DNA from: Flavobacterium sp. 9
Lineage (GTDB): Bacteria; Bacteroidota; Bacteroidia; Flavobacteriales; Flavobacteriaceae
DNA length: 64,000 nt
Direction of reading: 5' to 3'
Assembly: GCF_002754195.1 (NCBI RefSeq)
Contig: NZ_PEEU01000001.1
Span: 4,774,001-4,838,000, forward strand
Of the stretch, positions 17,734 to 31,397 are shown piece after piece; within the stretch, counting starts at the first letter, position 1, and every line of letters begins with the position of its first letter. The translations under genes and the position numbers were made by a program. The notes under the pieces are model-generated. The model ran no database searches. It was not told the DNA's origin and was given only the letters and a program-made list of their open reading frames with translations.

Positions 17734-18963
17734 CTATTTATCTAAATTGAATATTTCCGGAAAAAATTGATAATAAAGAAATGTCAAAATCCATAAAAGA
17801 AAAAATAAAACCGAAAGGAATTCGAAGATTTTAAATGTTTTTTCTCTTCTTGTTTTTTCTTTCTTTTGGAAACCAAAATTTGGTGATGAAAAATCAGAAT
17901 TTAGCTGATGGTTTGTTGTTAAATTTGTCTTTGATTGAATAGTATTCAGACTATTCAAATACTGAGGTTGCGTATTTTGATTCACAAAATTTATAAATTC
18001 ACGCTTATTTTCATTGTGAAACAACTTTACTTCTTCAATTTTTCTATCTGAATTGATATAATTTATAGCCTCTTTTATCTTTTTTGAAAACTCATAATAT
18101 TTATTTTCAAGAATATGAATTTGCTTTTTAGAATCCTCGATTTTTTTGCTATTTTCATGATGTAATCTTGAATTTTGCTCAATACTTTCTTTAAGATTTT
18201 TAATCGTTGTTTTTTTGTTTTCTTCAAGCTCAGTTATTTCTTTTTCGAAATCATTCAATAATAATTGTAGTCGTTTCTTTTTTTCTTCTCTCAGTATTTG
18301 AATTTCATTGTCAAAACCTTCTTCATTGGTTGTTTTATACAAACCTTTGCTGTAAGTAAAATTGGCAACTTCTTCATTATTGGTAAAGAAAATCGTGTCA
18401 AAACTGTTTAATAATTCTAATGATTTTTTAAAATTATGCTGCAATTTACTTGTATCCAAAGCAGAGTAAACAACTAAATTAGAATTTGATAAATTGAAGT
18501 TCGAAGGTTCATCAAAACCTTTCAGATTAAAACTAAGTTTGTCGAAATCCTGTGGAATATCTGCAGAAAAATTATCCGAATGATTGACCATTATCGTTTT
18601 ATCATCAACGTTTTTACTAACTAATATCTTGTGAAATTCGTTTAGTTTAGTAATCGTAAGATTTTCTTCGGCAATTTCAGTTGTAAAAAGAATACTGGCG
18701 CCAATAAAAGTACCGCCACGATCCGAATTTTGTTCTTTTGCAAAAGAATATTTTGAATAAGCAATTGAATTTAATCCACTTGCTACTTCTTTACGAACAG
18801 CATATATTGTACTGTTTTCGACTAGTTTAATTGCATTTGTGTTTAAGTCAAATGTTTTGATTGATTTTGCTACATTTTGATTTCCTACTTTAAAAAAAGA
18901 TTGTCTAAAACCGTATGGATTTCCAAATGTCCCAAATGCTAACAAATATATATTTTGTGCCAT
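17734..18963 (-). CDS. Tail-anchored coiled-coil protein of a G-protein cassette
   Basis: 409 aa, not securely recognised. Residues 1-215 are globular (start LLAFGTFGNPYGFRQSFF). Residues about 219-310 are a long charged coiled coil, 330-375 is Asn/Ser/Gln-rich and basic, and one membrane helix lies at about 380-401, so it is likely tail-anchored. It is third in a tight cassette (5 nt after the G-protein gene). The fold of the N-terminal part could be compared with the GTPase-associated (GAP1-type) proteins described beside bacterial conflict GTPases, but this is only a suggestion. Confidence 0.75.
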   Translation of the reverse strand: MAQNIYLLAFGTFGNPYGFRQSFFKVGNQNVAKSIKTFDLNTNAIKLVENSTIYAVRKEVASGLNSIAYSKYSFAKEQNSDRGGTFIGASILFTTEIAEENLTITKLNEFHKILVSKNVDDKTIMVNHSDNFSADIPQDFDKLSFNLKGFDEPSNFNLSNSNLVVYSALDTSKLQHNFKKSLELLNSFDTIFFTNNEEVANFTYSKGLYKTTNEEGFDNEIQILREEKKKRLQLLLNDFEKEITELEENKKTTIKNLKESIEQNSRLHHENSKKIEDSKKQIHILENKYYEFSKKIKEAINYINSDRKIEEVKLFHNENKREFINFVNQNTQPQYLNSLNTIQSKTNLTTNHQLNSDFSSPNFGFQKKEKTRREKTFKIFEFLSVLFFLLWILTFLYYQFFPEIFNLDK

Positions 18964-18968
18964 ATTGT

Positions 18969-19889
18969 TTAAAAGCTAAATTTTAATCGTTCCCAGAATG
19001 TTCCTTCATAATCTAAGGGATAACCTACCACGCTCTCGTAAAGCCAATTAGATAATACTTCAGCAGGATCTAAATTCAAAAGCGTTATTCTTTCTCCGTC
19101 TCCATTGTTTTCAATGTTGCCAATTGTGAAATACGTTTTATTTAATTCATACGAGTTTATTCTGTTGTTTGTTCGGGGTAAACGTTCGTTAATGAAATTT
19201 TCTAATTCTTCTTCATTAGAAACATCTGTTCTGCCGGATTTATCCCATTTAGAAACTACTAAAATCACATTTATAGATTTCAGATTCTTACCTTTTCTTT
19301 CCAGTTCATCCAGAAATTCGTTTATTAAAGTATCTTCTAAATGTGCCATATCAAAACTAGTCACAATTATAAAAGTCAACGGAATATTAGCATTCAAATA
19401 AGCTTCGATACTACTATGATACGTTCCGCCTCGGCTAATATCTTTATGATTTTCGCCCGAAGTTTCCAGAAAAGTCAGGTTAATAGGAGGGACTTTTTTA
19501 GATTTATTATTAGGTTCAAATATCAAATCTAATCTGGTTACCTGATCACGTGTTGTTCTGTTTGGTAAAATACCCTGTCTGATATTTTCAAAAAAATCAG
19601 TCAGTAAAACTTGTGCTTCTTTTGAATTTGGAGTTCCTAATTTTGGACGTAAAACCCCGGCTTGCGAACTTAAATAATAAAGAATCGAGGAAAGAATAAC
19701 AGATTTACCGGATTCTCCAACACCAAAAAAGAAAACAAAATTACTGTCTTTGTTTTTTATGTCATTCGTACCGGCATTAGCCAAAGGAACAAAAGTAGAT
19801 TTCGGCTCATTTTTTGTTTCAAAAGAAATAGGTTTTAATTTGTCATCATCAAAAGACAAAGGCTTTAAAGTGTTGTTTTCGTTAGTCAT
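18969..19889 (-). CDS. G-domain P-loop NTPase of the cassette
   Basis: 306 aa. A Walker A motif GVGESGKS lies at 56-63, right after a hydrophobic strand. A TTR at 112-114 may be switch I, LTFLETSGE at 138-146 fills the Walker B/switch II place (with E in place of D and no DxxG), and VVSKWDKSG at 211-219 fits the NKxD guanine-recognition motif with Ser for Asn. This order is that of the TRAFAC GTPase class. The N-terminal tail contains two copies of a short motif (LKPLSF and LKPISF). Flanking genes encode membrane-linked partners, so it probably acts at the inner membrane. The cell process is unknown. Confidence 0.8.
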   Translation of the reverse strand: MTNENNTLKPLSFDDDKLKPISFETKNEPKSTFVPLANAGTNDIKNKDSNFVFFFGVGESGKSVILSSILYYLSSQAGVLRPKLGTPNSKEAQVLLTDFFENIRQGILPNRTTRDQVTRLDLIFEPNNKSKKVPPINLTFLETSGENHKDISRGGTYHSSIEAYLNANIPLTFIIVTSFDMAHLEDTLINEFLDELERKGKNLKSINVILVVSKWDKSGRTDVSNEEELENFINERLPRTNNRINSYELNKTYFTIGNIENNGDGERITLLNLDPAEVLSNWLYESVVGYPLDYEGTFWERLKFSF

Positions 19890-19900
19890 TTTAAGTAATT

Positions 19901-20929
19901 TTAGTTTTTTGCAATTAATACTTTGCCACTTCTTTTGTTTCCGTTAAATACACTTGAATGACTGTTACTTCCATTATTTGGTGTAACCAGTAATACAATA
20001 ATGACGATAACAAAATCTAATAAAACGCATCCCATTAATACAACAAATTGATACATTCCGAAGTTTTTAATCGCGTGGTCAAAAGCAAATCCGATTTTTC
20101 CAACATCCTGTGTTTTTGAAATTTCGGGTGTGAATTTAAATTTATCATCGCCCAAAACGGTATGAGCACGATTCCCCAACTTATTATATTCCGTTAATGA
20201 TTCGTCGATTAATCCCTGAGAGATATCATCTTTTTCTTTTTTAGAAAGCAGTAATAAATCCTGAATCTTCTTGTTCCATTTTAAAACAGCATTATTAATA
20301 TCTGTTTTTAAAGCTTTTTCTTCAGGAGAAAGATCTGAAATCATGTTGTCAATTTGGCGTCCCATTCTTTCGGCCAAATCATCGTAATCGTTACGAACAG
20401 GAGTAAGAAAATCAACTTTTTGTCCCGTTAATTGTTCTATATCTCTTATCAACGATTGCGCTCTGGTTCCCATTCCTTTATTTCCGGGATCTTTTATCTG
20501 TTCCATCATTTGTTTTTTCTTAATTTCAATATTTTGGGCAGTTGCTCCATTATATTTATAACTTAACTTCGATTGAACATCAGATTCCAGATTATTAAAA
20601 CGTTCGTTTATATCCCTTAATTCGGTTGTATAAATATCAGTTCGCATAAATCTTGTATACAAAGCATTAAAATTTGCCATAAAACAAAATGATGCGATAA
20701 AAATATAAATGCCCACGAGGCTTGACGTAGAACGACCTTCTATTTTTGCAACTCTTAGCATCCATACTAAAAACAATAATAAAAGGGATAAAACCAAAGC
20801 AATTATAAACGATGCAGGACCAAAAATTTGGTCTAGTCCAAGCCAGGTTTGGTAAAAACTTACGCTAATTAATAATATGGCAAGTACTGCCAAAAAGAGA
20901 TCTGTTGCCTGAATTGATTTTTTACTCAT
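19901..20929 (-). CDS. Membrane protein with large soluble helical middle, first gene of the G-protein cassette
   Basis: 342 aa, not recognised. Three membrane helices lie near the N-terminus (about 10-29, 36-58 and 70-90), a long helical soluble part follows (95-285, partly coiled coil), and a fourth helix lies at about 290-317. It precedes the G-domain gene by 11 nt, and the whole cassette is one operon. A regulon promoter (21088-21132) points into it from 159 nt upstream, which would give a leader of about 150 nt. Confidence 0.75.
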   Translation of the reverse strand: MSKKSIQATDLFLAVLAILLISVSFYQTWLGLDQIFGPASFIIALVLSLLLLFLVWMLRVAKIEGRSTSSLVGIYIFIASFCFMANFNALYTRFMRTDIYTTELRDINERFNNLESDVQSKLSYKYNGATAQNIEIKKKQMMEQIKDPGNKGMGTRAQSLIRDIEQLTGQKVDFLTPVRNDYDDLAERMGRQIDNMISDLSPEEKALKTDINNAVLKWNKKIQDLLLLSKKEKDDISQGLIDESLTEYNKLGNRAHTVLGDDKFKFTPEISKTQDVGKIGFAFDHAIKNFGMYQFVVLMGCVLLDFVIVIIVLLVTPNNGSNSHSSVFNGNKRSGKVLIAKN

Positions 20930-21087: not shown

Positions 21088-21132
21088 CAAAACTAACTTC
21101 TTCTAATTCAGTTATTTTACGGAAATCCGTAA
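21088..21132 (-). promoter_or_regulatory. Palindrome-controlled promoter 1 (upstream of the G-protein cassette)
   Basis: On the minus strand TTACGGATTTCCGTAA (21117-21132) is followed by exactly 21 nt and TAGTTTTG (21088-21095). No normal -33 element is needed if the palindrome binds an activator. Same layout as at 22303, 24403 and 31353. The rest of 20930-21383 holds no gene I can support. Confidence 0.65.
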
Positions 21133-21299
21133 TTTCAATTATTGAGAAAAATTTTACAATGCCAAAAAAAAGATGTTTTTTGCTTTGGATATAGTAGATA
21201 ATCCGATTTGTGTAGTGCAGAAAAGTCTGTGAATTATTTCTAGTAATTTCTATTGTAGTATTTATATAAAGAACTAAAAAAAGTTGGAGAGTATTTAAC

Positions 21300-21338
21300 A
21301 AAAAATGCGCAAAAATCATTTAGACTTTTGCGCATTTT
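21300..21338 (-). terminator. Terminator after the 22255-21384 operon
   Basis: A 13-bp perfect stem (21302-21314 with 21326-21338, AAAATGCGCAAAA / TTTTGCGCATTTT), with T runs on both sides. It is placed 46 nt past the stop of the minus-strand gene at 21384. Confidence 0.75.
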
Positions 21339-21383
21339 CGGGTTTTATAAAATCGTTTTTAGGCTTATTTAGGCAGTAGATTT

Positions 21384-21812
21384 TTAAACCTTAAAAATAT
21401 CAATTTTTTGCATCCAGGGAATTCCTGATTCCAGAAATGTAAGTCTCGTTTTAACGATTTGATCTGTTTTATCACGAGGATTTTTGGTTACAAATCGTGC
21501 CGAAGATTTATTAAAATCTAAAGTATATTTTTCGTCAAAATCATCTTTTTTATCCGTCGAAAAAGTGATCATATTGTATTTTCCAGCCCATTTTCCTTTT
21601 CCGTATTTGTTTACTTCAGGCGGAATTCCTCCTTGCGTTTTTGTATACGAATGAAATACAAATGTTCCATCTTGATTTAAAGTCAATTTATATTCGATAA
21701 TATGTTTTCCTTCTTCACTAAGTGAACGCGTATAATCGCCAGCAAAATTGTTGGTTTGTGCAGATAATGCTAAGTTGAAAATAAAAAGTAAAGCAGCAAG
21801 TATTAGTTTCAT
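21384..21812 (-). CDS. Unrecognised secreted protein, lipocalin-like
   Basis: 142 aa with a signal peptide of about 18 residues (ALSAQ). The remainder (GDYTRSLS..., YKLTLNQDGTFVFHSY..., GKGKWAGKYNMITF) is a beta-strand-rich small-barrel-like pattern common in short lipocalin-type proteins. The start ATG overlaps the stop of the upstream gene by 4 nt (ATGA), showing translational coupling. Function unknown. Confidence 0.72.
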   Translation of the reverse strand: MKLILAALLFIFNLALSAQTNNFAGDYTRSLSEEGKHIIEYKLTLNQDGTFVFHSYTKTQGGIPPEVNKYGKGKWAGKYNMITFSTDKKDDFDEKYTLDFNKSSARFVTKNPRDKTDQIVKTRLTFLESGIPWMQKIDIFKV

Positions 21813-22255
21813 GGGTTTGTTTTTTTGGTTTGTTCTTTATGGTAGTATGGAAAAACCCAAAGGTCGTATCCGTCAGGCACGTATGTTGGACATTTTTCTA
21901 TTTTGCAAATTTGAAAGGAACGAATTACATCTTCATAAGGAGTTTTTTTATCAAATTTTAAATGAATGCCTTTATTGGGATCTTCTTCGGATATTATTTC
22001 TCTTATTTTTAATTGAAAAAGTTTAAAAATTTTATCATCGTATTTTTTATTTCCAATAAGTTTTAATGAAACAATAGATTTTCTTTTGACATATTCTTCT
22101 AAAGTAACACCTGTCTTTTTTTCAAAGTCTCTATCTCGATACATAATTTGAGTAGCGTCTTCTCCGAATGTATTGGTTTTTAACATCCATAAAAAACACG
22201 CTGAAATGAAAATGATAAGAAATGCACTGTAAAAATAAAACGGTTTTATCTTCAT
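21809..22255 (-). CDS. Unrecognised membrane-anchored protein
   Basis: 148 aa. One N-terminal membrane segment (about 8-25) and a soluble remainder with CKIEKCPTYVPDG near the end. No family recognised. First gene of a two-gene operon with the secreted protein at 21384-21812, driven by the palindrome promoter at 22303-22347. Confidence 0.68.
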   Translation of the reverse strand: MKIKPFYFYSAFLIIFISACFLWMLKTNTFGEDATQIMYRDRDFEKKTGVTLEEYVKRKSIVSLKLIGNKKYDDKIFKLFQLKIREIISEEDPNKGIHLKFDKKTPYEDVIRSFQICKIEKCPTYVPDGYDLWVFPYYHKEQTKKTNP

Positions 22256-22302
22256 TATTTTGGTTTTTATTACTTCAAAAAAAATAGATTAAGAACTTTT
22301 AT

Positions 22303-22347
22303 CAAAAGTAATTCGTTTGAATTCAAATACCTTACGTAAAACCGTAA
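22303..22347 (-). promoter_or_regulatory. Palindrome-controlled promoter 2
   Basis: On the minus strand TTACGGTTTTACGTAA (22332-22347), then 21 nt, then TACTTTTG (22303-22310), 48 nt before the ATG at 22255. Confidence 0.68.
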
Positions 22348-22510
22348 ACAATGTCTTGAAAATGATTATCTCTCGTTAATGTTTATATTAATCCGTTTTT
22401 TGTACCAAAAAAAGAGGAAAAATAATAAGATAATTACCTCATAAAAATGTATTTTGAAAGATTAAAATAAGTATATTCGTTCTGTTAAATTTAATTATAA
22501 CTATCTATAA

Positions 22511-23302
22511 ATGAATATAAAGCAAGCAAATACTATAGACGAAGTAATTCTATTATTGGATGAAATAATCGAAAAGTCAAAACTAGAACAAAGCGCTATA
22601 GGCTTATTTGCTACGCTATATCGTGAAGTTACGGTAAAAGTAAAAGAAGGAATCCGAGATGGTTCTTTTCAGAATGGGGAACGAATGGAAAAATTGGACG
22701 TTATTTTTGCCAATCGGTATCTAAAAGCCTATTACCAATATAAAGGCAAAGAAAAACCATCTGAATGTTGGGGATTTGCCTTTGAACAAACCGAAAAATA
22801 CTGGCCAATAGTTGTCCAGCATTTATTGCTTGGAATTAATGCGCATGTAAATCTTGATTTAGGAATCGCTTCAGCCCAAGTTAGTACAGTTGAAGATATC
22901 GCGGGTTTAAAAGCTGATTTTGACAAAATAAATGCCATCTTGAGTAATCTCGTTGGAGGCGTTGAAAAATGTTTGATCAAAATTTGGCCAACGCTCACAA
23001 TGATCCTAAAATGGACAGGCAAAATCGACAACTTCTTTATAGATTTTAGCATGGAAACTGCAAGAGATGGCGCCTGGAAATTTGCCAATGAATTTGTAGC
23101 GGTTCCGGAAAACGAAAGAGAATCCTGCACAAAACTAAGAGACGAAAGAATAACCGAAATCGCCCGATTAGTTTCGAATCCGGGATATTTTGTGAGTGCC
23201 TTTTTCAAATTTATTCGCTTATTTGAAAGAGGAACTGTCGCTCAAAAAATAATTGATATGCAGATAATCGAAGAAAAAAATATGGAATGTGCGGTTGCTT
23301 AA
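22511..23302 (+). CDS. DUF5995 family protein
   Basis: 263 aa, no signal peptide. Marks of the DUF5995 family: IGLFATLYREVTVKVKEGI, YLKAYYQY, HLLLGINAHVNLDLGIA (about residue 99-115) and a closing CTKLRDERI. Mostly helical. The conserved NAHVNLDLG (Asn, His, Asp) looks like an active-site patch, but no reaction is known. It is the only plus-strand gene for several kb. Confidence 0.82.
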   Translation: MNIKQANTIDEVILLLDEIIEKSKLEQSAIGLFATLYREVTVKVKEGIRDGSFQNGERMEKLDVIFANRYLKAYYQYKGKEKPSECWGFAFEQTEKYWPIVVQHLLLGINAHVNLDLGIASAQVSTVEDIAGLKADFDKINAILSNLVGGVEKCLIKIWPTLTMILKWTGKIDNFFIDFSMETARDGAWKFANEFVAVPENERESCTKLRDERITEIARLVSNPGYFVSAFFKFIRLFERGTVAQKIIDMQIIEEKNMECAVA

Positions 23303-23388
23303 TTTTCGAAAAATAACATTAGAAAACAGGAAAAGTTGAGCAGATAATTTGGCATCAAAGCTCTTAAGAAGGAAAGTCTTTTATTTAT

Positions 23389-23430
23389 CTGCAAACACAA
23401 ACTTTCTAATTAGAACGTTTGTGTTTGCAG
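23389..23430. terminator. Strong stem-loop between convergent genes
   Basis: A 14-bp perfect stem (CTGCAAACACAAAC 23389-23402 with its complement 23417-23430). There is no T run on either side, so it may act as a weak bidirectional terminator or an mRNA 3' end stabiliser between the DUF5995 gene and the lipoprotein gene. Confidence 0.5.
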
Positions 23431-23470
23431 ACTTTAGTTTGAATTCGAGATTTTATACTTGAATTGTTTT

Positions 23471-24322
23471 TTAATAATATTCAACGGTATAGTTGGCTGT
23501 TGCAGGAGCAGAACCTCCATTTTCATAAGTATTTAGCCAACTTACAGGATATCCGGCACTATTATAGATATGGTCGTATGTTGCAGAACCATAAACAATC
23601 ATATTATTAGGTGTTATTCCCGTAAATTTATAATTAGGTATTCCATATCTGCATTCTAGATAATAAACGCTTTTATATAATTTTTTAAAGGAATAATAAA
23701 ACGGATTTTTTTTGTCATCATATTGAAAACGCACAACATAATCAGGATAGTTATAATTGTTTTCTTTATAAGTTATTTGAGTAATGTTATTGTTACTATC
23801 GTATAAATATTCTTCTGCCATAGAAGTATAAGTTGTTGTTGGCGTTAATTTTTTTACTCTGATAATTCGCCCTTTATCATCCAAATAGATATCAGAAATT
23901 TCAGAATATTTGTTTCCGCCATTATAATTATAGGTATTTGAAATAGTTATTTTATTAGAACCATATGACAACGTTATATTATCTTGAGATCCGGTTTTGG
24001 ATTGTTTTATTAACCTATTCTTGCTGTCATATTGATATAGATATTCTCCATCACCCATTTGTCTTTTGATTAGTTTACCTGAATTATCGTATTCAAATGT
24101 TCCCGAAAACCAATTATAGCCAGTTCCTTTTATTAAATAACCATTACTATATTCGTAGAAAGCATCATAATCAGAAGGAGTAGGAGATGTAGTAGTTTTG
24201 TATGATTTAATGTATGCAACATTTTGATCTTCTGCATTATTATCATTATCCGAATCTGAGCTGCAACTAAACAAAAAGATAAGTGAAAGAGAGGAGAATA
24301 GAGTAAGTAATTTTGCTTTCAT
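23471..24322 (-). CDS. Lipoprotein with YD-repeat-like strands
   Basis: 283 aa. Lipobox LFSC (Cys20). The rest is a row of YD/RHS-like beta repeats (YEYSNGYLIKG, FEYDNSGKLIKRQ, YQYDSKNRLIKQ, YLDDKGRIIRVK, YLYDSNNNITQI), as in many Bacteroidota surface lipoproteins. It is probably displayed at the outer membrane. Expressed from the palindrome promoter at 24403-24447. Confidence 0.8.
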   Translation of the reverse strand: MKAKLLTLFSSLSLIFLFSCSSDSDNDNNAEDQNVAYIKSYKTTTSPTPSDYDAFYEYSNGYLIKGTGYNWFSGTFEYDNSGKLIKRQMGDGEYLYQYDSKNRLIKQSKTGSQDNITLSYGSNKITISNTYNYNGGNKYSEISDIYLDDKGRIIRVKKLTPTTTYTSMAEEYLYDSNNNITQITYKENNYNYPDYVVRFQYDDKKNPFYYSFKKLYKSVYYLECRYGIPNYKFTGITPNNMIVYGSATYDHIYNSAGYPVSWLNTYENGGSAPATANYTVEYY

Positions 24323-24402
24323 TTTTTTAGATGGAATTATTGTAATATTAATATATTTTCTGCTAAAAGGAAATACTTAAAAAGTGGATGATTTTATTAT
24401 TT

Positions 24403-24447
24403 CAAACATACTTACTTTTAATTTACTAACCTTACGTGAAACCGCAA
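24403..24447 (-). promoter_or_regulatory. Palindrome-controlled promoter 3
   Basis: On the minus strand TTGCGGTTTCACGTAA (24432-24447), then 21 nt, then TATGTTTG (24403-24410), 81 nt before the ATG at 24322. Confidence 0.65.
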
Positions 24448-24465
24448 AGCTACTTTGGATCAAGA

Positions 24466-24545
24466 GTTAGCGCGAGCGTCTCACTCGCGATTACTTTTTT
24501 ATTTTCTACTTAGAGAATGATTTAGATTTCGTTCACGAGCAGGAC
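24466..24545. repeat. Degenerate GAGCGAGACGCTAGCGCT-type repeat, copy 1
   Basis: The text AGCGCGAGCGTCTCACTCGCG is, inverted, similar (17 of 21 by eye) to CACGAGCGAGACGCTAGCGCT at about 29876-29896. It fills the space between two lipoprotein genes. Confidence 0.5.
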
Positions 24546-24546
24546 A

Positions 24547-25044
24547 CTATTTATATTCGTAAATTCTTATTCTGCCACTGTTTCTATTTTCTTTTACAAA
24601 TAGTAATTTTTCTTTTGGATAATTTTTTTCTATTTCTAATGTATCATTACAATCAATAATTTTATCATAAGATGGCGAAAATTTTATTAAAAAATTTTCG
24701 CTAATTGTTTTCTGGTCTATTTGAATTTTTTTCAATCCAAAGTCAGAATAATTAAAGCTATGGTATAAGTTCTGATTTAATACTTTTAGGTGTCCATTAG
24801 GATATAATCTAAAGTCTAGATCAATTTTATAAACTTTTCCGCCGATTTTAAATGGTTCTTTATCATTATTGTCACTTTTGTCAAATTCTTTAACATCATT
24901 TAGGTTATGAATTATCCTTCTACTTATATTTTCATTTAAGACAATATATTTTGCGGTTAACTTTGACTTAGGTGGTATTTCAAACTTTCTTTCACAACCA
25001 ATAAGAAGGAAAAGAAATGCTAGCTTATATAATGTTGTTTTCAT
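24547..25044 (-). CDS. Unrecognised small lipoprotein
   Basis: 165 aa. Lipobox LLIGC (Cys17), followed by a beta-rich body with no recognised family. Single gene; no regulon-type promoter could be found before it. Confidence 0.68.
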   Translation of the reverse strand: MKTTLYKLAFLFLLIGCERKFEIPPKSKLTAKYIVLNENISRRIIHNLNDVKEFDKSDNNDKEPFKIGGKVYKIDLDFRLYPNGHLKVLNQNLYHSFNYSDFGLKKIQIDQKTISENFLIKFSPSYDKIIDCNDTLEIEKNYPKEKLLFVKENRNSGRIRIYEYK

Positions 25045-25333
25045 GATAAATTATGCTAAGAATTAAAAGAGGAACGGCATCTTATGCTATGCAGATTTAC
25101 AAATCTTTAATTAAAACGCCTGGATTCATTTTTAAAGATTGAGCAATTTTAAAATATTTATTTATGACGAATATAAAGTTAAAAATTCGAACTCTAATTA
25201 TTTTTTTGATGCGTTCAGTTTTCGGTTACATGCAACCGATTGTATACGATCCCTTTAAAGTGAATTATTACTTGTAATTTCGTCGTGATGAAAAAGAATG
25301 CGAAAAGTGAAAATCCAGTAATAAATTAAAGTA

Positions 25334-25684
25334 ATGGAAATACAACATACAAAAGAAGTCACAGAATTTTTAGAATCAATGAATAGAATAAATAAATTCA
25401 AAAAACTAAAGCAAGAAAATATCGGTGATAATTCGTTTAGCGTGAAGCTAAAAGTATCTTGTTATAACGAACTTAATTTAATGGTTTCAAGTCTTCTAAA
25501 AGCGAGTATTATTTTACTTAGTGATGACGCCCGAAGTCAGGCAAGTTTTCCATTTAATGAAGCTGATAGTAATGTAATGAATTTGCTTGAAATTGCTTTG
25601 CAGCTTCTACCAGAAGAAGAAATGGAATTATTGGATGATTTGCATAAGGTTTATTTGAAGTCTGAGACAGGTTTTGTAAAATAG
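25334..25684 (+). CDS. Unrecognised small soluble protein
   Basis: 116 aa, helical, acidic toward the end (LLPEEEMELLDDLHKVYL). No signal peptide and no family recognised. Upstream, at 25222-25239, lies a palindrome TCGGTT-N6-AACCGA, 36 nt before TAATTTCG (25275-25282), a near match to the -7 box, so this gene may have an operator of its own. This is a weak observation. Confidence 0.55.
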   Translation: MEIQHTKEVTEFLESMNRINKFKKLKQENIGDNSFSVKLKVSCYNELNLMVSSLLKASIILLSDDARSQASFPFNEADSNVMNLLEIALQLLPEEEMELLDDLHKVYLKSETGFVK

Positions 25685-25715
25685 TGCAACAAGTTAATTT
25701 ATAATGAATTAATTA

Positions 25716-26348
25716 TTATTCATGTCTTTTTTTTATTTCTTCAATAGCATATTTTGCAGAATGCTTTACATCTCTTTTTCTACTTTTTAAATGTTTTTCT
25801 AAAAAAGGTATCGCTTTTAATGTTCCTATTTTATTTAGAGTAGCATTTGTATAAATTATGTTATATACATCATCAGAATTATCAAGAATATCAATTAATG
25901 TGTTTTCGGCAATGCTATCAAATGAGTTGTTTAAGGAATGTATAGCGCTGTGCCGAATTAACCATTTGTCACTTTTTGTTGCTTGAATTAAAGGTTGTAA
26001 ATCTGTCCCGATTGGTTTTTTGATATTTGCAATTCTTTCTAATAGAGCTGAAATTATATATTTATCGGTTTCCTTATTAACGCGGGAAATTAAATGGTCT
26101 AAGGCTTTTAAATCATTTGTGTTCTTTGTAATATGACCAAGAAGAAAATACGCACGATCTCGTTTCTTTTTATCTTTTTCATTGTCAATAAATGCAATTA
26201 ATTGCGGAATGTATTCTGCATTTTCAACATTTTCGGCTTCTCTATAAGCTTTCCAAGAAATTGTTTTGGAACCATCATAACCAGTTTCCATATTACGGTC
26301 GCTCCTGTCCAACATTCTGTCAATTATGTCTATTAAGTAATTATTCAT
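25716..26348 (-). CDS. HEAT-repeat protein
   Basis: 210 aa, no signal peptide. Five to six HEAT-like helical pairs, with marks such as AEYIPQLIAFIDNEKDKKKR, YFLLGHITKNTNDLKALDHL, KWLIRHSAIHSLNNSF and GTLKAIPFLEKHLKSRKRDV. These form an alpha solenoid for protein binding; the partner is unknown. It lies near a DoxX-like membrane protein, but the orientation and 60-nt gap do not prove an operon. Confidence 0.78.
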   Translation of the reverse strand: MNNYLIDIIDRMLDRSDRNMETGYDGSKTISWKAYREAENVENAEYIPQLIAFIDNEKDKKKRDRAYFLLGHITKNTNDLKALDHLISRVNKETDKYIISALLERIANIKKPIGTDLQPLIQATKSDKWLIRHSAIHSLNNSFDSIAENTLIDILDNSDDVYNIIYTNATLNKIGTLKAIPFLEKHLKSRKRDVKHSAKYAIEEIKKRHE

Positions 26349-26408
26349 TTATTTGAACTTTTTAACTTTAGGTTGTAATTTGTTTTTTATGATCAAATTT
26401 GTAGCTTT

Positions 26409-27245
26409 TTATAAGTAATTCTTTGTAGAATTGAGCTGCTTTTTACGATCATTTGTCAATGCGATTACTATTGCAATGCCACAGAAAAGCAACGCAACAA
26501 ATGCACGAACAATTTCGTTTCCGCCGCCTGCAGATGGATTTGCAATGGCATCAGGAATATGAAAGAATAGAAAAAACAGTAAAAGCGTAAGTGCTAAAAG
26601 AAGCGCAATTGGTTTTATTAGTATTTTAAAAATAATTGAAATGCCGGCAATGACAAGAGCAACGCCAAAAAAATAAGTCCAAAACATTGGTGCAGGTAAC
26701 CATTTTGGTACCATTGTAGCGATAAAGCTGGCAAAAGCAAAATGACTCAATCCAAATAATATCATTAGAATCGAATAAAAAACGCGCCCACACGGAATAA
26801 GTTTTTCTAATAATGATGTGAAATTCTTTTTGCCACCAGTAGAACTGTTCTCTGTAAATGATCCCGCCATTACAAACGCTCCGCCACTATAGGTTAATTC
26901 TTCGAGAGCATTTATCCAAACCTGAAAATCCGGAGTTTTATCTGCACTAAGCATTATAATATAAGGCAAATGAGAAGTGATAATTGCAACAAGAAAACCA
27001 AAACCTAAATAAAGACATATTTTTTTTGTGTCTATAGATTTAATTTTAAATAATCCCGAAATAATAATTCCCGCAAATATCAAAGCTATTCCGGTAAGAA
27101 TGGGGAAGATAACATTTTCATGAGCCCAAGCCGGAAACGGAGATAAAATCTCTGAACGAAAATTTTTGATAATAATTTGATGAATCCCCAAAGCAACAAC
27201 ACCGATACCATAAAATGCACGGCCAATTTTAATAAGTTTTTCCAT
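26409..27245 (-). CDS. DoxX-like membrane protein with internal duplication
   Basis: 278 aa with about eight membrane segments. The first half starts KLIKIGRAFYGIGVVALGIHQI, and the second half starts KLIPCGRVFYSILMILFGLSHF at about residue 147. The repeated pattern (GR.FY....L.G..H) shows an internal duplication of a four-helix DoxX-type unit. Function unknown; DoxX relatives belong to redox-linked membrane complexes. Confidence 0.7.
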   Translation of the reverse strand: MEKLIKIGRAFYGIGVVALGIHQIIIKNFRSEILSPFPAWAHENVIFPILTGIALIFAGIIISGLFKIKSIDTKKICLYLGFGFLVAIITSHLPYIIMLSADKTPDFQVWINALEELTYSGGAFVMAGSFTENSSTGGKKNFTSLLEKLIPCGRVFYSILMILFGLSHFAFASFIATMVPKWLPAPMFWTYFFGVALVIAGISIIFKILIKPIALLLALTLLLFFLFFHIPDAIANPSAGGGNEIVRAFVALLFCGIAIVIALTNDRKKQLNSTKNYL

Positions 27246-27402
27246 TAGTGGTTTAGTTAGAAAAAATGATTAAAGAATAGATTTTGGCAATTATCAAATA
27301 TATAAATTAATTCAGAAAATACTTGTTTAAGGTTTTGGTTTTTTATCATAGTATTGAGTTAACTAAGAACACTTCATGGAATAGGGCGGGGTTGAGAGCT
27401 CT

Positions 27403-28362
27403 TTAAAAGTCAAACATTCCTTTTCTATCACTGTAAGAGTGTAAATTGAAAAATGCGAAGTGTTCCCACTCTGGATTAATTTCATCTGAATAAAATCTAC
27501 ATTTCAAGTCATTTGTCAAAAATTCAATACTTATTGAATTTATATCAATATCGTAACATTCAGAATATGTAGAATGAGCCGGACTAGGAAATGTTTCTTT
27601 AAATTTTTCATTATATTCGGGCTTGAAATACCTAATAAGAGCAGCTTCAGTGAAATTTATTTCCTGTTGTTCATTTATTTTTTTTTCTAAGACATTGTAA
27701 ATTATATTGTCGGAATGCTTTTGGTCGTTAATTTTTTCTTGATCAGATAATTTCATTTTTCCGTCAAAACTCATAATTAACCATTGCTTAAATGTGAAAA
27801 GACCAAGTATAACATCTTTATCAGGGTTGTTTTTGTTTACTTCTTCAAAAATTGATTGCATTGTGGAATGCGTCTTAAGTCTGTCAGGAGCTGTTCTTGC
27901 TCCTTCTTCCCCATAAGACTGTCCTATATATAGAACTTTGAAATCTAAGTTTTTGTAAAATGTTCCAATTTTACCTGGTCCTATAGATTGAAGTAATCCA
28001 GGTCCATTAGTATGGATTATCTGTTTTTCTCCTTCAAATATTTTGAAAGAAAAATATGGATATTTACTTTCAAATCTTAAGTCTTTTGATTTATTATAGT
28101 TAGGAAAATTTAACTCAAGTTCTTCAAATTTATCCTGAATTTGTGCTTTAAATTTTATTGTGAAAGAATTTTCATCAAACTTAAAACCATTTTTATCTAC
28201 TGTTATTTTAGGTCGAGTTCCTATAAAATAAATATGGCACGGATGGTCATTATTAAAATAATTTTGTTCCGTTAAATAGTCCAATTCACTTAGTCTACAA
28301 ATGGCTTTTCTGTCCGCTTGCATATTAAGTGCAAATTCTGATAAATGTTTTCTTTTTGACAT
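27403..28362 (-). CDS. Divergent GIY-YIG-like nuclease domain protein
   Basis: 319 aa. The N-terminal 125 residues are not recognised. Residues about 130-255 fit a GIY-YIG nuclease: IGTFYKNLDFKVLYIGQS (132-149, GTF in the GIY place and YIG at 145-147), DRLKTH (Arg161, His165), then TEAALIRYFKPEYNEKF with Glu239 and Asn251 in the places of the catalytic Glu and conserved Asn. The insert between the first and second parts is long. Such domains nick DNA or RNA; the target here is unknown. No obvious partner gene is in the same operon. Confidence 0.62.
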   Translation of the reverse strand: MSKRKHLSEFALNMQADRKAICRLSELDYLTEQNYFNNDHPCHIYFIGTRPKITVDKNGFKFDENSFTIKFKAQIQDKFEELELNFPNYNKSKDLRFESKYPYFSFKIFEGEKQIIHTNGPGLLQSIGPGKIGTFYKNLDFKVLYIGQSYGEEGARTAPDRLKTHSTMQSIFEEVNKNNPDKDVILGLFTFKQWLIMSFDGKMKLSDQEKINDQKHSDNIIYNVLEKKINEQQEINFTEAALIRYFKPEYNEKFKETFPSPAHSTYSECYDIDINSISIEFLTNDLKCRFYSDEINPEWEHFAFFNLHSYSDRKGMFDF

Positions 28363-28608
28363 TGTATTACTAATTAGTTATGTAAGATATTATTTGTATT
28401 TTTGAAATGCCTGTGACTCATAAAAAAAATACTGATCCGAAGCCTCCTGACTTTGCACTGCTGCTGTATTATTTCTCTTTGTGGCTTATTAGAGTGGGAA
28501 CAAAACAAAGAAACTTCGTACAGAGATAAAGATAATTAGGACACTTGGAGTGGCAAATTCTAAATTATAGCTATCTAAAAACTCAAATCTTTCCAATGTA
28601 TATAGTTC

Positions 28609-28743
28609 TTATTTGCCTTTTGGACCAGATGGTGGTTTGCTTTCCATTCGTGGAGTTGTTGGTTTTGGTTTGTCAGAACTGAAAGTTTTTTTTTCTCCTT
28701 TTTGGCTTGGCTGTTTTCCTTGGTTTGGTTGCTTTTTTTCCAT
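28609..28743 (-). CDS. Small Pro/Lys-rich protein (44 aa)
   Basis: 44 aa, starting MEKKQPNQGKQPSQKGEKK and ending PPSGPKGK. Starts 10 nt after the stop of the membrane protein at 28754-29371, so it is the second gene of that operon. Very basic and disordered; no family recognised. The good frame and tight spacing support it, but short low-complexity frames can be chance. Confidence 0.5.
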   Translation of the reverse strand: MEKKQPNQGKQPSQKGEKKTFSSDKPKPTTPRMESKPPSGPKGK

Positions 28744-28753
28744 AGAAATAGTT

Positions 28754-29371
28754 TTAAAAATTTGCTTTTTCAATTATTATATCGTGTTTATTAAATGATA
28801 AATACACTTCTGGAATCGAATATATTTCTTCACAATTTATGTATGTATATACAACTACTTCAGCCAATCTAATTTCTGAAAAGGTTTCAGATTCTGAAAA
28901 TGATTTTACCCATCCGTGATATGTTAAATTATTTTTTATATCTCTTACATATACATAATCAGTATTTGATGAGTTTAGAAATCTTGAAAATAAATTCTCA
29001 TCACCATATTTATTTGAAATACCAAGTTTTTTAGCAATTTTAGAAATGATCTTTTTATTTTCAATTCGGCTTATTAAAAAGGCTAAAATTACGGCAACAA
29101 CTGAAGAAAATCCTATTTCGTTATAAGGAATTTTCTGTGAGTCGGTTAATTGGTTCCAGATTGACAATTCTTCTATAAATGAATCAGAAAAAATATTTAA
29201 AATATTCAGGAATAATTGCAAAATAATGAAAGAAAAAGCACCAAATAAAATTGAATACAAAACAAATTTAAAACTATCCCATTGTTTGTGTAAAATTAGT
29301 TTTCCGAAAATCAATGTTGCAATTGCTCCAGGGAGCAAAAGAATGATTAATTTAACTGTTAATTCCGACAT
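28754..29371 (-). CDS. Membrane protein, possibly DUF6338-like
   Basis: 205 aa with three membrane segments (about 7-25, 35-60 and 85-102) and a soluble C-terminal part of about 90 residues that looks beta-rich (YVYVRDIKNNLTYHGWVKSF...IRLAEVVVYT). This layout is like DUF6338 proteins, but I cannot confirm it. Followed by a 44-aa gene 10 nt downstream. Confidence 0.6.
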   Translation of the reverse strand: MSELTVKLIILLLPGAIATLIFGKLILHKQWDSFKFVLYSILFGAFSFIILQLFLNILNIFSDSFIEELSIWNQLTDSQKIPYNEIGFSSVVAVILAFLISRIENKKIISKIAKKLGISNKYGDENLFSRFLNSSNTDYVYVRDIKNNLTYHGWVKSFSESETFSEIRLAEVVVYTYINCEEIYSIPEVYLSFNKHDIIIEKANF

Positions 29372-29558
29372 TTGTTAATATTAAATTAGATTGATATGTT
29401 ATGAAATTTATATATGATGTTAATATAATTTATTATTTCACCTAATTGTGCAGATTTACAATCCGTCCCCGCAAAGATTAAATTTTAGTTTTTTGCTTTC
29501 AGATTTCATATTCTAATCTCACAGTTGTGGGCATGCAAATCTACAATATTGAAGTTTT

Positions 29559-29828
29559 TTATTGTCTTGCAGATGAACTTCCACCTCCAAATGCTCCAAT
29601 TCCTATGATAAATCCAAGCCAATAAGTAAATCCAGTATTATGTTCGGCGTAAATTCCAATGTTGAAACCAAATAGTTTTCCGATTATAGAAAAAACAATA
29701 ATAATTCCGTGCCAAATACCTGAAAAGAAACCAGATTCATTAGATTCATAATGGTTTGGGGCACAGGAAGAGAGGCTCATTACAAAAAACAATAGAATTA
29801 GTACATTTGTAATTTTTTTTACTTTCAT
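29559..29828 (-). CDS. Small lipoprotein with membrane segments
   Basis: 89 aa. Lipobox LSSC (Cys22), then two hydrophobic stretches (about 36-54 and 66-82) and a closing Gly/Ser-rich tail (FGGGSSSARQ). Similar short lipoproteins of unknown role are common in bacteria. Single gene. Confidence 0.68.
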   Translation of the reverse strand: MKVKKITNVLILLFFVMSLSSCAPNHYESNESGFFSGIWHGIIIVFSIIGKLFGFNIGIYAEHNTGFTYWLGFIIGIGAFGGGSSSARQ

Positions 29829-29871
29829 TTTATTTTTGTTTATATATCATTATTTAACTTCTTTCAGCTTG

Positions 29872-29960
29872 TGTTCACGAGCGAGACGCTAGCGCTAGAG
29901 GCGCCATCTGAGTATTTAAAATTTGGATTGCATTTACGAGAGCGACGTTCGTGACAGCTA
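29872..29960. repeat. Degenerate GAGCGAGACGCTAGCGCT-type repeat, copy 2
   Basis: Contains CACGAGCGAGACGCTAGCGCT and, about 40 nt on, ACGAGAGCGACGTTCGTGA. Related in inverted form to 24466-24545. A 70-aa open frame here is repeat-derived. Confidence 0.5.
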
Positions 29961-29968
29961 TTAATAAA

Positions 29969-30721
29969 TTAGAATCTTTTAAGCTTCTGCTCTTTTTCCA
30001 TTTTTTTTCTGTCATCTTCCAACATTTGCATGTTTTCCATATTAAAATTAATTTTTTTATTTTCTCTAATATAAATGTCAAAATCAAATATTTCTATTTG
30101 ATCATTAATTACAGTTTCGCAATATTTATTGATTTTAAAATCAAAAGTTAGCATTGCTCGAATTCTATTTTCCTCAGAAGCAAAAAAATATTGTAAAAAT
30201 GTATTCAAATATTTTTTAAGTTTTACATTTTTACAAGCATTAGGGGTTTTCTTCTCTTCTGATTTATGTCCTTTTCCTTTGTATTTTTCAAGAATAATAT
30301 TTCTGTAATCTTTATTTAGGCTTGCCCTTATAAAATATAACTTATCATTGTAGAATTTAAGCAGAACGTTTTTAATAACAATATTGTCAGTTTTATAACT
30401 AGGAATAAATATTACTTCTGTAGAGTCATTTACCGAAGCTACTTCGAGATTATACCAACTTTTCACATTTTTATAATCTGGTTTTAGCTCATAAGCAAAT
30501 ATATCTCCTGCATATTCTTCATTAAGATCTTCATATTTAACTATATGATTTTGATATTCATTTTCATCCTCTATAATCGACGTAATTGAAGCATATGAAG
30601 GCAATATCCATTTTAAATCAGAAGTACTTGTCGAATTTATCTCGAAGTCGCCAATTCTTGTTGGACAATCTTGTGCATTTGAATAGATTCCAATAAAAAT
30701 TATAAATAGAAAATATTTCAT
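29969..30721 (-). CDS. Unrecognised secreted protein
   Basis: 250 aa. Signal peptide of 17 residues (YSNAQ) followed directly by DCPTRIGDFEINSTS. Charged, with a Lys-rich C-terminus. No family recognised. 18 nt after the secreted protein gene at 30740-31312, so in its operon. Confidence 0.7.
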   Translation of the reverse strand: MKYFLFIIFIGIYSNAQDCPTRIGDFEINSTSTSDLKWILPSYASITSIIEDENEYQNHIVKYEDLNEEYAGDIFAYELKPDYKNVKSWYNLEVASVNDSTEVIFIPSYKTDNIVIKNVLLKFYNDKLYFIRASLNKDYRNIILEKYKGKGHKSEEKKTPNACKNVKLKKYLNTFLQYFFASEENRIRAMLTFDFKINKYCETVINDQIEIFDFDIYIRENKKINFNMENMQMLEDDRKKMEKEQKLKRF

Positions 30722-30739
30722 AAGTATGCTTTTTAAAAT

Positions 30740-31312
30740 TTATTTAACTTCCTTCAGCATCGTAAGTAATTCTGGAATTTTGCTTACTTGAGATTCCGTC
30801 CAGAAATAATGTTCATTATCTGTCGAGCCATTATCTTTTAAATAGATAGATATTCTTCTTGAACTTTTTCCAATATAGAAACTGAATGTAATTTCTCTGG
30901 AATTAAATATATAAGTTACCGATTGGTTTGTTTCAGTTTTGTCTTTTAAATTTGGAATGACATATTGTTCTATGAAAACTATAAATTCTTCAACTTCATT
31001 TAAATCAATCCATGAGGATTTGAAATAATTACCACTTCTTCCTGCAGATTGATATGCCGCTGTCATGTCCATTTGCAATGATTTTACCTTTTTGTTTGAT
31101 TTCAAATCAATTGCTTCGACCGGAAAGAAAGAAACTACTTCGCCAAGTCCAGACCTAAATTCTGCCTTCACGTTCCAATCTTTATTTATCTGCGTTATTT
31201 CAGCGTTTTCTATAAATTGTCTAGCTTCAGAATTTGGTTTTTCTTTTTGGGCATTGCTTATTGTTATAATTGAAAGCATTAAGAGCGAAATTATTATTTT
31301 GATAGATTTCAT
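30740..31312 (-). CDS. Unrecognised secreted protein
   Basis: 190 aa with a signal peptide of about 22 residues (ITISNAQ). Mixed alpha/beta body (EVEEFIVFIEQYVIPNLKD, then SSRRISIYLKDNG), no family recognised. First gene of a two-gene operon with 29969-30721, driven by the palindrome promoter at 31353-31397. Confidence 0.7.
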   Translation of the reverse strand: MKSIKIIISLLMLSIITISNAQKEKPNSEARQFIENAEITQINKDWNVKAEFRSGLGEVVSFFPVEAIDLKSNKKVKSLQMDMTAAYQSAGRSGNYFKSSWIDLNEVEEFIVFIEQYVIPNLKDKTETNQSVTYIFNSREITFSFYIGKSSRRISIYLKDNGSTDNEHYFWTESQVSKIPELLTMLKEVK

Positions 31313-31352
31313 TTTTATATTGGTTTAGTTATTATTGATTCATCTTCTTTAG

Positions 31353-31397
31353 CAAAACTAATTCCTCTTCACTTGTATATTTTACGGAAATCCATAA
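31353..31397 (-). promoter_or_regulatory. Palindrome-controlled promoter 4
   Basis: On the minus strand TTATGGATTTCCGTAA (31382-31397), then 21 nt, then TAGTTTTG (31353-31360), 41 nt before the ATG at 31312. Confidence 0.67.

Follow-up and report, generated by a model that had tools for sequence, protein, structure and literature searches.

The four promoters of the window

The window considered here is a stretch of 64,000 nucleotides, bases 4774001–4838000 of the single-contig genome (6,328,714 bp) of Flavobacterium sp. 9. On its minus strand lie four promoters of the same design: a 16-bp palindrome, followed after 21 nt by a −7 box of the form TAnnTTTG. In what follows, we describe these promoters, the genes behind them, and a two-component system, encoded elsewhere in the genome, for which the palindrome is the predicted operator and whose regulon appears to include anti-phage defence genes. 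Features of the window are given in window positions, and all other sites in genome positions.

The four palindromes, with their boxes, are TTACGGATTTCCGTAA (21117..21132) with TAGTTTTG (21088..21095); TTACGGTTTTACGTAA (22332..22347) with TACTTTTG (22303..22310); TTGCGGTTTCACGTAA (24432..24447) with TATGTTTG (24403..24410); and TTATGGATTTCCGTAA (31382..31397) with, again, TAGTTTTG (31353..31360). Inspection of the sequence agreed with the first-pass annotation of this DNA, which had placed all four pairs here, on the minus strand, spaced by exactly 21 nt and each ahead of a minus-strand gene. Sites are scored, box included, as matches out of 18 to the consensus TTACGGN4CCGTAA-N21-TAnnTTTG; in the order given, the four score 18, 17, 16 and 17, and their boxes precede the first ATG by 159, 48, 81 and 41 nt. 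The weakest palindrome, at 24432, ends TCACGTAA, as do those of genome sites 39495, 4703086 and 5221007; sites with this ending possibly form an operator sub-class.

Behind site 21117 lies a cassette that begins with the gene for a 342-aa predicted membrane protein (19901..20929; no Pfam family above cut-off) and continues with those for a 306-aa P-loop/GTPase-like protein (18969..19889) and a 409-aa protein of no assigned family (17734..18963). The 306-aa protein matches DO-GTPase1 weakly, below cut-off (E 3e-4), and, also weakly, the PADLOC model mad8 (E 8.5e-6). Among 149 other Flavobacterium genomes, four contain a match to the 342-aa gene: two of these matches (99% and 89% identical) have an 18/18 element, one has a 15/18 element and one has none. 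Site 22332 is followed by the gene for a 148-aa protein with, by eye, an N-terminal hydrophobic segment (21809..22255), beside which is encoded a 142-aa secreted-looking protein (21384..21812) that resembles the NlpE N-terminal domain below cut-off (E 6.6e-4). Site 24432 stands ahead of the gene for a 283-aa lipoprotein-like protein with an RHS/YD repeat (23471..24322), and site 31382 ahead of a run of genes, the first for a 190-aa secreted-looking protein (30740..31312) and the second for a 250-aa protein (29969..30721). The 190-aa gene is matched in 17 of 150 genomes, its own included. The element is kept at 5 of the 7 loci that are at least 72% identical, and a 43%-identical homologue in another genus (L257) has an 18/18 element in front.

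Occurrence across the genome

A whole-genome search with the exact pattern proposed by the first-pass annotation yielded six matches, and none when the pattern was reversed; the pair therefore occurs more often than chance would have it. The six are the four window sites and two others, at 1637269 and 1938635. The annotation had regarded the promoters as a local regulon, an idea that this search rules out: two of the six matches, at 1.64 and 1.94 Mb, are far from the window (4.77–4.84 Mb). The spread of the element across the Flavobacteriaceae, and its presence beside regulator genes of further genera (discussed below), contradict it as well. When the spacing was freed to 6–36 nt and the palindrome loosened, eight matches were found and five in the reversed control; the six exact-match palindromes were all at spacing 21, and the other two, at 32 and 25 judging from match length, look like chance.

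With up to three mismatches to the consensus, the genome contains 45 matches, versus 13 reversed. At two or fewer there are 22 sites. An open reading frame (ORF) starts 20–199 nt downstream of 21 of these, and the remaining site is within a coding region. Two groups of sites head paralogous genes. At 4234215, 4283573 and 4339818 (L060, L061 and L064), the variant operator ATGWGGAAAMCCGTAA-N21-TAGATTTG, which resembles the operators inside kinase genes described later, heads in each case a two-gene operon for proteins of ~558 and ~505 aa; the one ~558-aa protein scanned has the sorting tail of the type IX secretion system (T9SS). At 3379810 and 3381611 (L151), the operators TTACGTAAAACCGTAA and TTACGTAAAGCCGTAA, with N21 and the boxes TAAATTCG or TAATTTCG, precede tandem S41-peptidase paralogues of 553 and 548 aa, the first of which was scanned.

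A candidate regulator

The two exact matches outside the window led to a candidate for the regulator, which the first-pass annotation had correctly said was not in view there. At ~1.6348–1.6372 Mb, the gene for a 569-aa sensor kinase is followed directly by that for a 222-aa response regulator (RR). The kinase matches Pfam TPR_12 (tetratricopeptide repeats, TPR; E 2e-11), HATPase_c (E 7e-7) and, weakly, HisKA_3 (E 0.012); by eye, it has a signal- or lipoprotein-like start, and there is a hydrophobic segment near residue 350. Two sites flank the RR gene: 1636417 (15/18), in the 3' end of the kinase gene, and 1637269 (17/18), 85 nt after the RR. A paralogous RR, 50% identical, is encoded at 1.938 Mb behind a second kinase (covered here in its C-terminal part), and 17 nt after it lies site 1938635 (18/18). 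These two were the only strong matches when the genome was searched with the RR; three more were weak. The best titled match to the RR, at 91% identity, is from F. piscis. Judging from the sequence data set out in this and the following sections, this RR is probably the regulator of the palindrome-headed promoters.

The fold predicted for the RR by AlphaFold2 from 33 aligned sequences (pLDDT 91, pTM 0.69) comprises a receiver domain and C-terminal helices. The best matches by Foldseek in the PDB are spr1814, RcsB, LiaR and VraR, with probability 1.00 for spr1814 and RcsB; full-length RcsB chains reach TM-scores of 0.70 by query and 0.76 by target, and the others lower ones. Profile searches likewise match RcsB, VraR, DesR and NarL. 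Residues E9, D10, D59 and K117, i.e. the acidic pocket, the phospho-acceptor Asp and the Lys, are invariant in all 33 RRs, and 30 of the 33 match the receiver family PF00072 at E ≤ 0.01. None of the 33 matches Pfam GerE (PF00196) at that threshold, and 9 match DUF5932 weakly. Since the GerE model fails, the RR is, by sequence, a divergent member of the NarL/RcsB class. The first-pass annotation had guessed at a LuxR/NarL-type response regulator, and the guess is well supported by this candidate and its fold.

The resemblance to RcsB and to the NarL/FixJ class in general thus comprises the receiver and C-terminal helical domain, the match in fold over the full length and the conserved phosphorylation residues. 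RcsB binds an inverted repeat of similar size. The differences are that the RR scores 30.9 bits against the RcsB equivalog, for which the cut-off is 235 bits (other Rcs proteins were not searched for), that the operator is another one, and that the system here is a plain kinase/RR pair; what sets the RR apart from NarL/FixJ proteins is a C-terminal domain that Pfam GerE does not recognize.

Association of regulator and element across genomes

Among 299 genomes of Flavobacteriaceae, the motif, with at most one mismatch, is present in 108 (263 matches altogether; with the pattern reversed, 14 genomes are positive), and an RR matching at E ≤ 1e-25 in 118. Motif and RR occur together in 100 genomes, the motif only in 8, the RR only in 18, and neither in 173 (Fisher 4.6e-50, a figure uncorrected for phylogeny, related genomes not being independent).

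The element is also found next to the RR gene itself. In 42 RR neighbourhoods (those of the 40 other genomes that rank top by RR match, and the two loci of Flavobacterium sp. 9), there are 76 sites of at least 16/18, versus none reversed, and in 32 of the 42 a site lies on the same strand within 700 nt 3' of the RR. Five of the 40 neighbourhoods from other genomes lack any site of at least 16/18 (L113, L126, L127, L128 and L135). A further collection of 78 RR loci from GTDB is drawn mostly from Flavobacterium, but also from Maribacter, Lutibacter, Chryseobacterium, Sphingobacterium, Pedobacter, Mucilaginibacter and others. It contains 108 sites, versus none reversed, and 53 of the loci have one on the same strand within 700 nt 3' of the RR. 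Sites stand beside the RR genes of Chryseobacterium, Sphingobacterium, Pedobacter and Mucilaginibacter as well; the loci without a 3' site include both from Aquimarina, and those from Gillisia, Salinimicrobium and Tenacibaculum.

That the element might be an accident of chance or composition can be given virtually no credence in view of the reversed controls, which number 0 against 6 in the genome, 76 in the 42 neighbourhoods and 108 in the GTDB loci. In judging the original four unlikely to be coincidental, the first-pass annotation was evidently right.

Promoter architecture

The −7 element of F. johnsoniae promoters runs from T-12 to G-5 (PMC6847099). If the T of the box is numbered −12 in the same way, the palindrome extends from −49 to −34 and is centred at −41.5. 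This is the classical position for a class II activator, and from the geometry we infer that the palindrome is a site of activation. The first-pass annotation had come to the same view of an architecture shared by all four promoters, with the palindrome in place of the −33 element and in an activator-like position. A TTG 17–23 nt before the box occurs at 0 of 55 RR-linked sites, which is a modest test, as the palindrome itself excludes five of the seven registers. In 44% of the 55, the fourth position of the box is G, a base that F. johnsoniae promoters hardly ever have at −10 and −9 (PMC6847099). The G at this position, together with the lack of a −33 element, suggests that these are weak promoters, with boxes that need the help of an activator. 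The paper on transcription start sites in F. psychrophilum distinguishes six sigma motifs, and its main text contains neither ‘palindrom’ nor ‘response regulator’ (PMC9723704).

The spacing between palindrome and box is nearly absolute. Read in the direction of the RR, the 42 neighbourhoods contain 31 perfect palindromes. Twenty of these have a TAnnTTTG within 0–60 nt, and in all 20 it is at 21. The 78 GTDB loci, read in both directions, contain 48 palindromes with 43 boxes, of which 39 are at 21, two at 20, one at 31 and one at 43. These figures bear on the possibility that the palindrome is instead a repressor operator upstream of the box, by which the genes are held off. Position alone is compatible with this, and defence genes, which are costly, are often repressed. 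A spacing that hardly varies and the missing −33 element suit an activator, however, as do boxes that appear, from the frequency of G at their fourth position, to be weak, and we consider repression improbable.

An operator inside the kinase gene, and covariation with the regulator

At many RR loci (e.g. L111, L120, L133 and L138), an operator complete with −7 box lies inside the coding sequence of the kinase, ~50 nt ahead of the RR start, and is written with the codons of a GLxNxENR motif. When kinases were sorted by a tblastn match to an RR just downstream, the Arg codon of the motif, G[LM]xNxE[NSTY]R, proved to be CGT in 75 of 75 linked kinases and 0 of 14 unlinked ones; the palindrome and box, at 21 nt, are present in 81 of 96 linked kinases versus 0 of 19 unlinked. 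(An earlier sorting, by start motif, overlooked linked RRs, and gave CGT in 23/31, 25/44 and 24/43 supposedly unlinked kinases.) The codon counts argue against the idea that the internal site is a mere by-product of a conserved kinase motif: as far as sequence can tell, the element is kept at the DNA level.

The operator also changes with the regulator. Position 194, early in the predicted recognition helix, is Glu in 113 and Asp in 18 of 142 distinct RRs; the 11 others could not be sorted by the Glu/Asp pattern and were left out of the count (their seven sites all have C). Operators of Glu194-type RRs end CCGTAA, with C at operator position 12 in 88 of 92 sites, and those of Asp194-type RRs end CTGTAA, often as TTACAGATATCTGTAA, with C in 3 of 21 (Fisher 2.5e-14, largely from one clade). 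The dual-coded kinase element, and the operator change that tracks residue 194, point to the RR itself as the direct binder. Adjacency, co-occurrence and this covariation of protein and DNA together argue that the RR binds the palindrome.

A different regulator, for example of the Crp/Fnr family, might nevertheless bind the palindrome, with the RR operon merely one conserved target among others. Crp/Fnr-family proteins, too, act from −41.5, and the geometry would suit a Crp-like dimer; eight genomes have the motif and no RR at the cut-off, and the co-occurrence test covered the RR only. Against this stand the co-occurrence itself, the adjacency of sites 3' of the RR, the dual-coded operator a little way upstream of the RR start, and the operator change that follows a residue of the RR's predicted recognition helix. 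Regulation by another protein is in our judgement very unlikely. A Crp/Fnr-type regulator, suggested by the −41.5 geometry, was dropped when sites were found beside RR genes and the co-occurrence with the RR held, Crp/Fnr genes being outside that test.

Genes behind the element

In the genome of Flavobacterium sp. 9, ten proteins were scanned with PADLOC. Site 5978984 heads a Lamassu-like operon (LmuB E 3.7e-62, LmuC E 2.8e-7). Other targets include a 1273-aa protein, part of which is Upx-like (E 1.4e-26), a putative AbiC protein (Pfam putAbiC E 2e-17; PADLOC AbiC just 5.7e-4) and an ATPase like PtuA/GajA (E 1e-9). Behind the RR itself are encoded an HSDR_N nuclease-like protein and a bacterial PH protein. 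Many other targets are lipoprotein-like, T9SS-tailed or S41-peptidase proteins, or belong to no recognized family.

In other genomes, we took 40 regions whose elements do not directly follow the RR, 33 of which had an ORF behind a site of at least 17/18. PADLOC scans covered 27 of these loci (31 proteins from 17 loci, ten of these proteins being also scanned singly, and one protein each from 10 loci); outside the scan are loci L268, L270, L273, L274, L279 and L280, and the genes beside the RR. A defence family was matched at E ≤ 1e-8 in 13 of the 27. The matches comprise a Zorya II locus (ZorA 4.5e-140, ZorB 1.6e-81), a CBASS cyclase (2e-68), Tmn (8e-82), Kiwa KwaB (2.5e-111), PDC-S39, PDC-S60, PDC-M62A, type III restriction–modification, a type I restriction enzyme, two type I methyltransferases (apparently those of L254 and L258), a GajB-like helicase with a DarT-like protein as its neighbour, and, in L271, a kinase belonging to a promiscuous family. 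Without the GajB-like helicase and the kinase, whose families are broad, the cautious count is 11 of 27. The proteins of L245, L255, L263, L266, L272, L276 and L278, scanned singly, gave no match at 1e-6; that of L263 is 33% identical to the putative AbiC protein of Flavobacterium sp. 9. For comparison, 20 arbitrary regions were taken from four of the same genomes; the 59 proteins scanned from them matched four PADLOC families, with one protein each: three pVip models, probably matched by a single protein, and the PD-T4-6 kinase, hence probably two proteins and at most four. Defence families are accordingly enriched in the sampled loci, with 13 of 27 element loci versus probably two, and at most four, of 20 control regions. 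Viewed from the defence genes, ZorA2-like genes occur in 4 of the 299 genomes (two are weak, partial matches), with an element within 1.5 kb in front in two of the four, and KwaB occurs in three, with an element in front in two (one at 16/18).

Several operator-headed runs contain less familiar genes. One (L110:5197-12599) encodes an Hsp70-like protein, a protein kinase fused to an AAA ATPase, and unfamiliar proteins, and looks like an undescribed conflict or stress cassette. Two others, from two genera (L109:6776-12600 and L145:1-6243), have three products in common: one is tubulin-like by a weak match (the L109 copy was scanned), one is large and unknown, and one is lipoprotein-like. A conserved trio (L106:5097-7668, L114 and L136) encodes a TerB-like protein (scanned in L106), a ~420-aa protein and a ~300-aa lipoprotein-like protein.

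The enrichment weighs on another possible reading, about which we are doubtful: that regulator and operator are as proposed, but the regulon is one of envelope or surface stress, into which defence operons have been drawn through their use of any stress-active promoter, without defence being its selected purpose. Among the targets in Flavobacterium sp. 9 are proteins with signal-peptide or lipoprotein-like features or with T9SS tails, as well as S41 peptidases and an SH3-domain protein, and there is a likeness between the TPR sensor and FimS, by which a surface structure is controlled; what this reading explains less well is the difference in defence families between element loci and control regions. 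It shares its mechanism with our preferred explanation, and the likelihoods we assign to the readings do not sum to one.

A proposed two-component system for defence and surface genes

Taken together, we think it highly probable, from sequence comparison, that the palindrome serves as operator to a two-component system of Bacteroidota, one with a regulon that includes anti-phage defence. The TPR kinase, encoded elsewhere in the genome, would phosphorylate the 222-aa RR of NarL/RcsB-like fold; an RR dimer would bind the 16-bp palindrome and, from −41.5, touch RNA polymerase as a class II activator at promoters without a −33 element. The system would control its own RR through the operator inside the kinase gene. 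Its targets would be scattered operons, both for anti-phage or conflict systems and for secreted, lipoprotein or membrane proteins, those of the window included, and its likely task would be to activate defence genes and cell-surface genes jointly in response to an envelope or infection signal sensed by the kinase. Defence would be a main purpose of the system, and signalling by the TPR kinase would drive it.

A stronger form of this proposal, plausible but tentative, is that of a dedicated ‘immune’ two-component system in the Flavobacteriaceae and their relatives. The TPR kinase would detect infection or the envelope damage it causes, and one operator, serving as a portable, plug-in promoter, would turn on, in concert, many unrelated, horizontally acquired defence systems, namely Zorya, Kiwa, CBASS, Lamassu, restriction–modification, Tmn and uncharacterized ones.

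A number of observations count against the two-component explanation. Eight motif-positive genomes have no RR match at the cut-off, and 18 RR-positive genomes have no motif; 10 of the 42 RR loci, and 25 of the 78 from GTDB, have no site of at least 16/18 within 700 nt 3' of the RR. Pfam GerE does not match the RRs. Unlinked kinases are few and come mostly from one group of Flavobacterium loci, and the Glu/Asp covariation comes mainly from one clade, so both comparisons represent few independent events. Most targets in Flavobacterium sp. 9 are not recognizable defence genes and, within the window, only the GTPase-like cassette has matches, weak ones, to conflict systems. The element is missing from ZorA-like genes in two of four genomes and from KwaB in one of three, and stands in front of the 190-aa gene, at 15/18 or better, at just 6 of 17 loci, that of Flavobacterium sp. 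9 included.

Some features of the proposed system have precedents. FimS–FimR of Porphyromonas gingivalis pairs a TPR sensor kinase with a regulator that activates transcription (PMC11053733). The likeness lies in the pairing of a Bacteroidota TPR sensor kinase with a response regulator, seen here for the first of the two pairs; in contrast, FimS–FimR controls fimbriae, and has a different operator and regulon. In Serratia, the control of CRISPR-Cas by Rcs (PMC10810281, citing Smith et al. 2021) is a precedent for the action of an RcsB-class system on anti-phage defence, but does not involve a single operator at the head of many unrelated defence systems across a family. Among regulators of transcription, the WYL-type BrxR and CapW proteins also control defence genes, each acting on its own operon, whereas the single chromosomal pair proposed here would serve many operons; no WYL domain appeared when the RR and kinase were scanned with Pfam.

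Implications

To our knowledge, little is understood of how bacteria coordinate their many defence systems, and in the open-access literature we found no publication on this element, or on a two-component defence regulon or promoter type of this kind. Here, one operator, in one exact geometry, precedes unrelated defence systems in several genera of a single family, together with its probable regulator, and coordinated control of defence thereby becomes directly testable. The system also provides an example of an operator preserved within coding sequence, and one of a natural operator change paired with one residue of the regulator. The pattern palindrome-N21-TAnnTTTG provides a sequence handle by which candidate defence genes of Bacteroidota may be found through their regulation rather than by homology. 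If the proposal is true, unfamiliar genes behind the operator, such as the GTPase-like cassette of the window, would be candidate defence systems.

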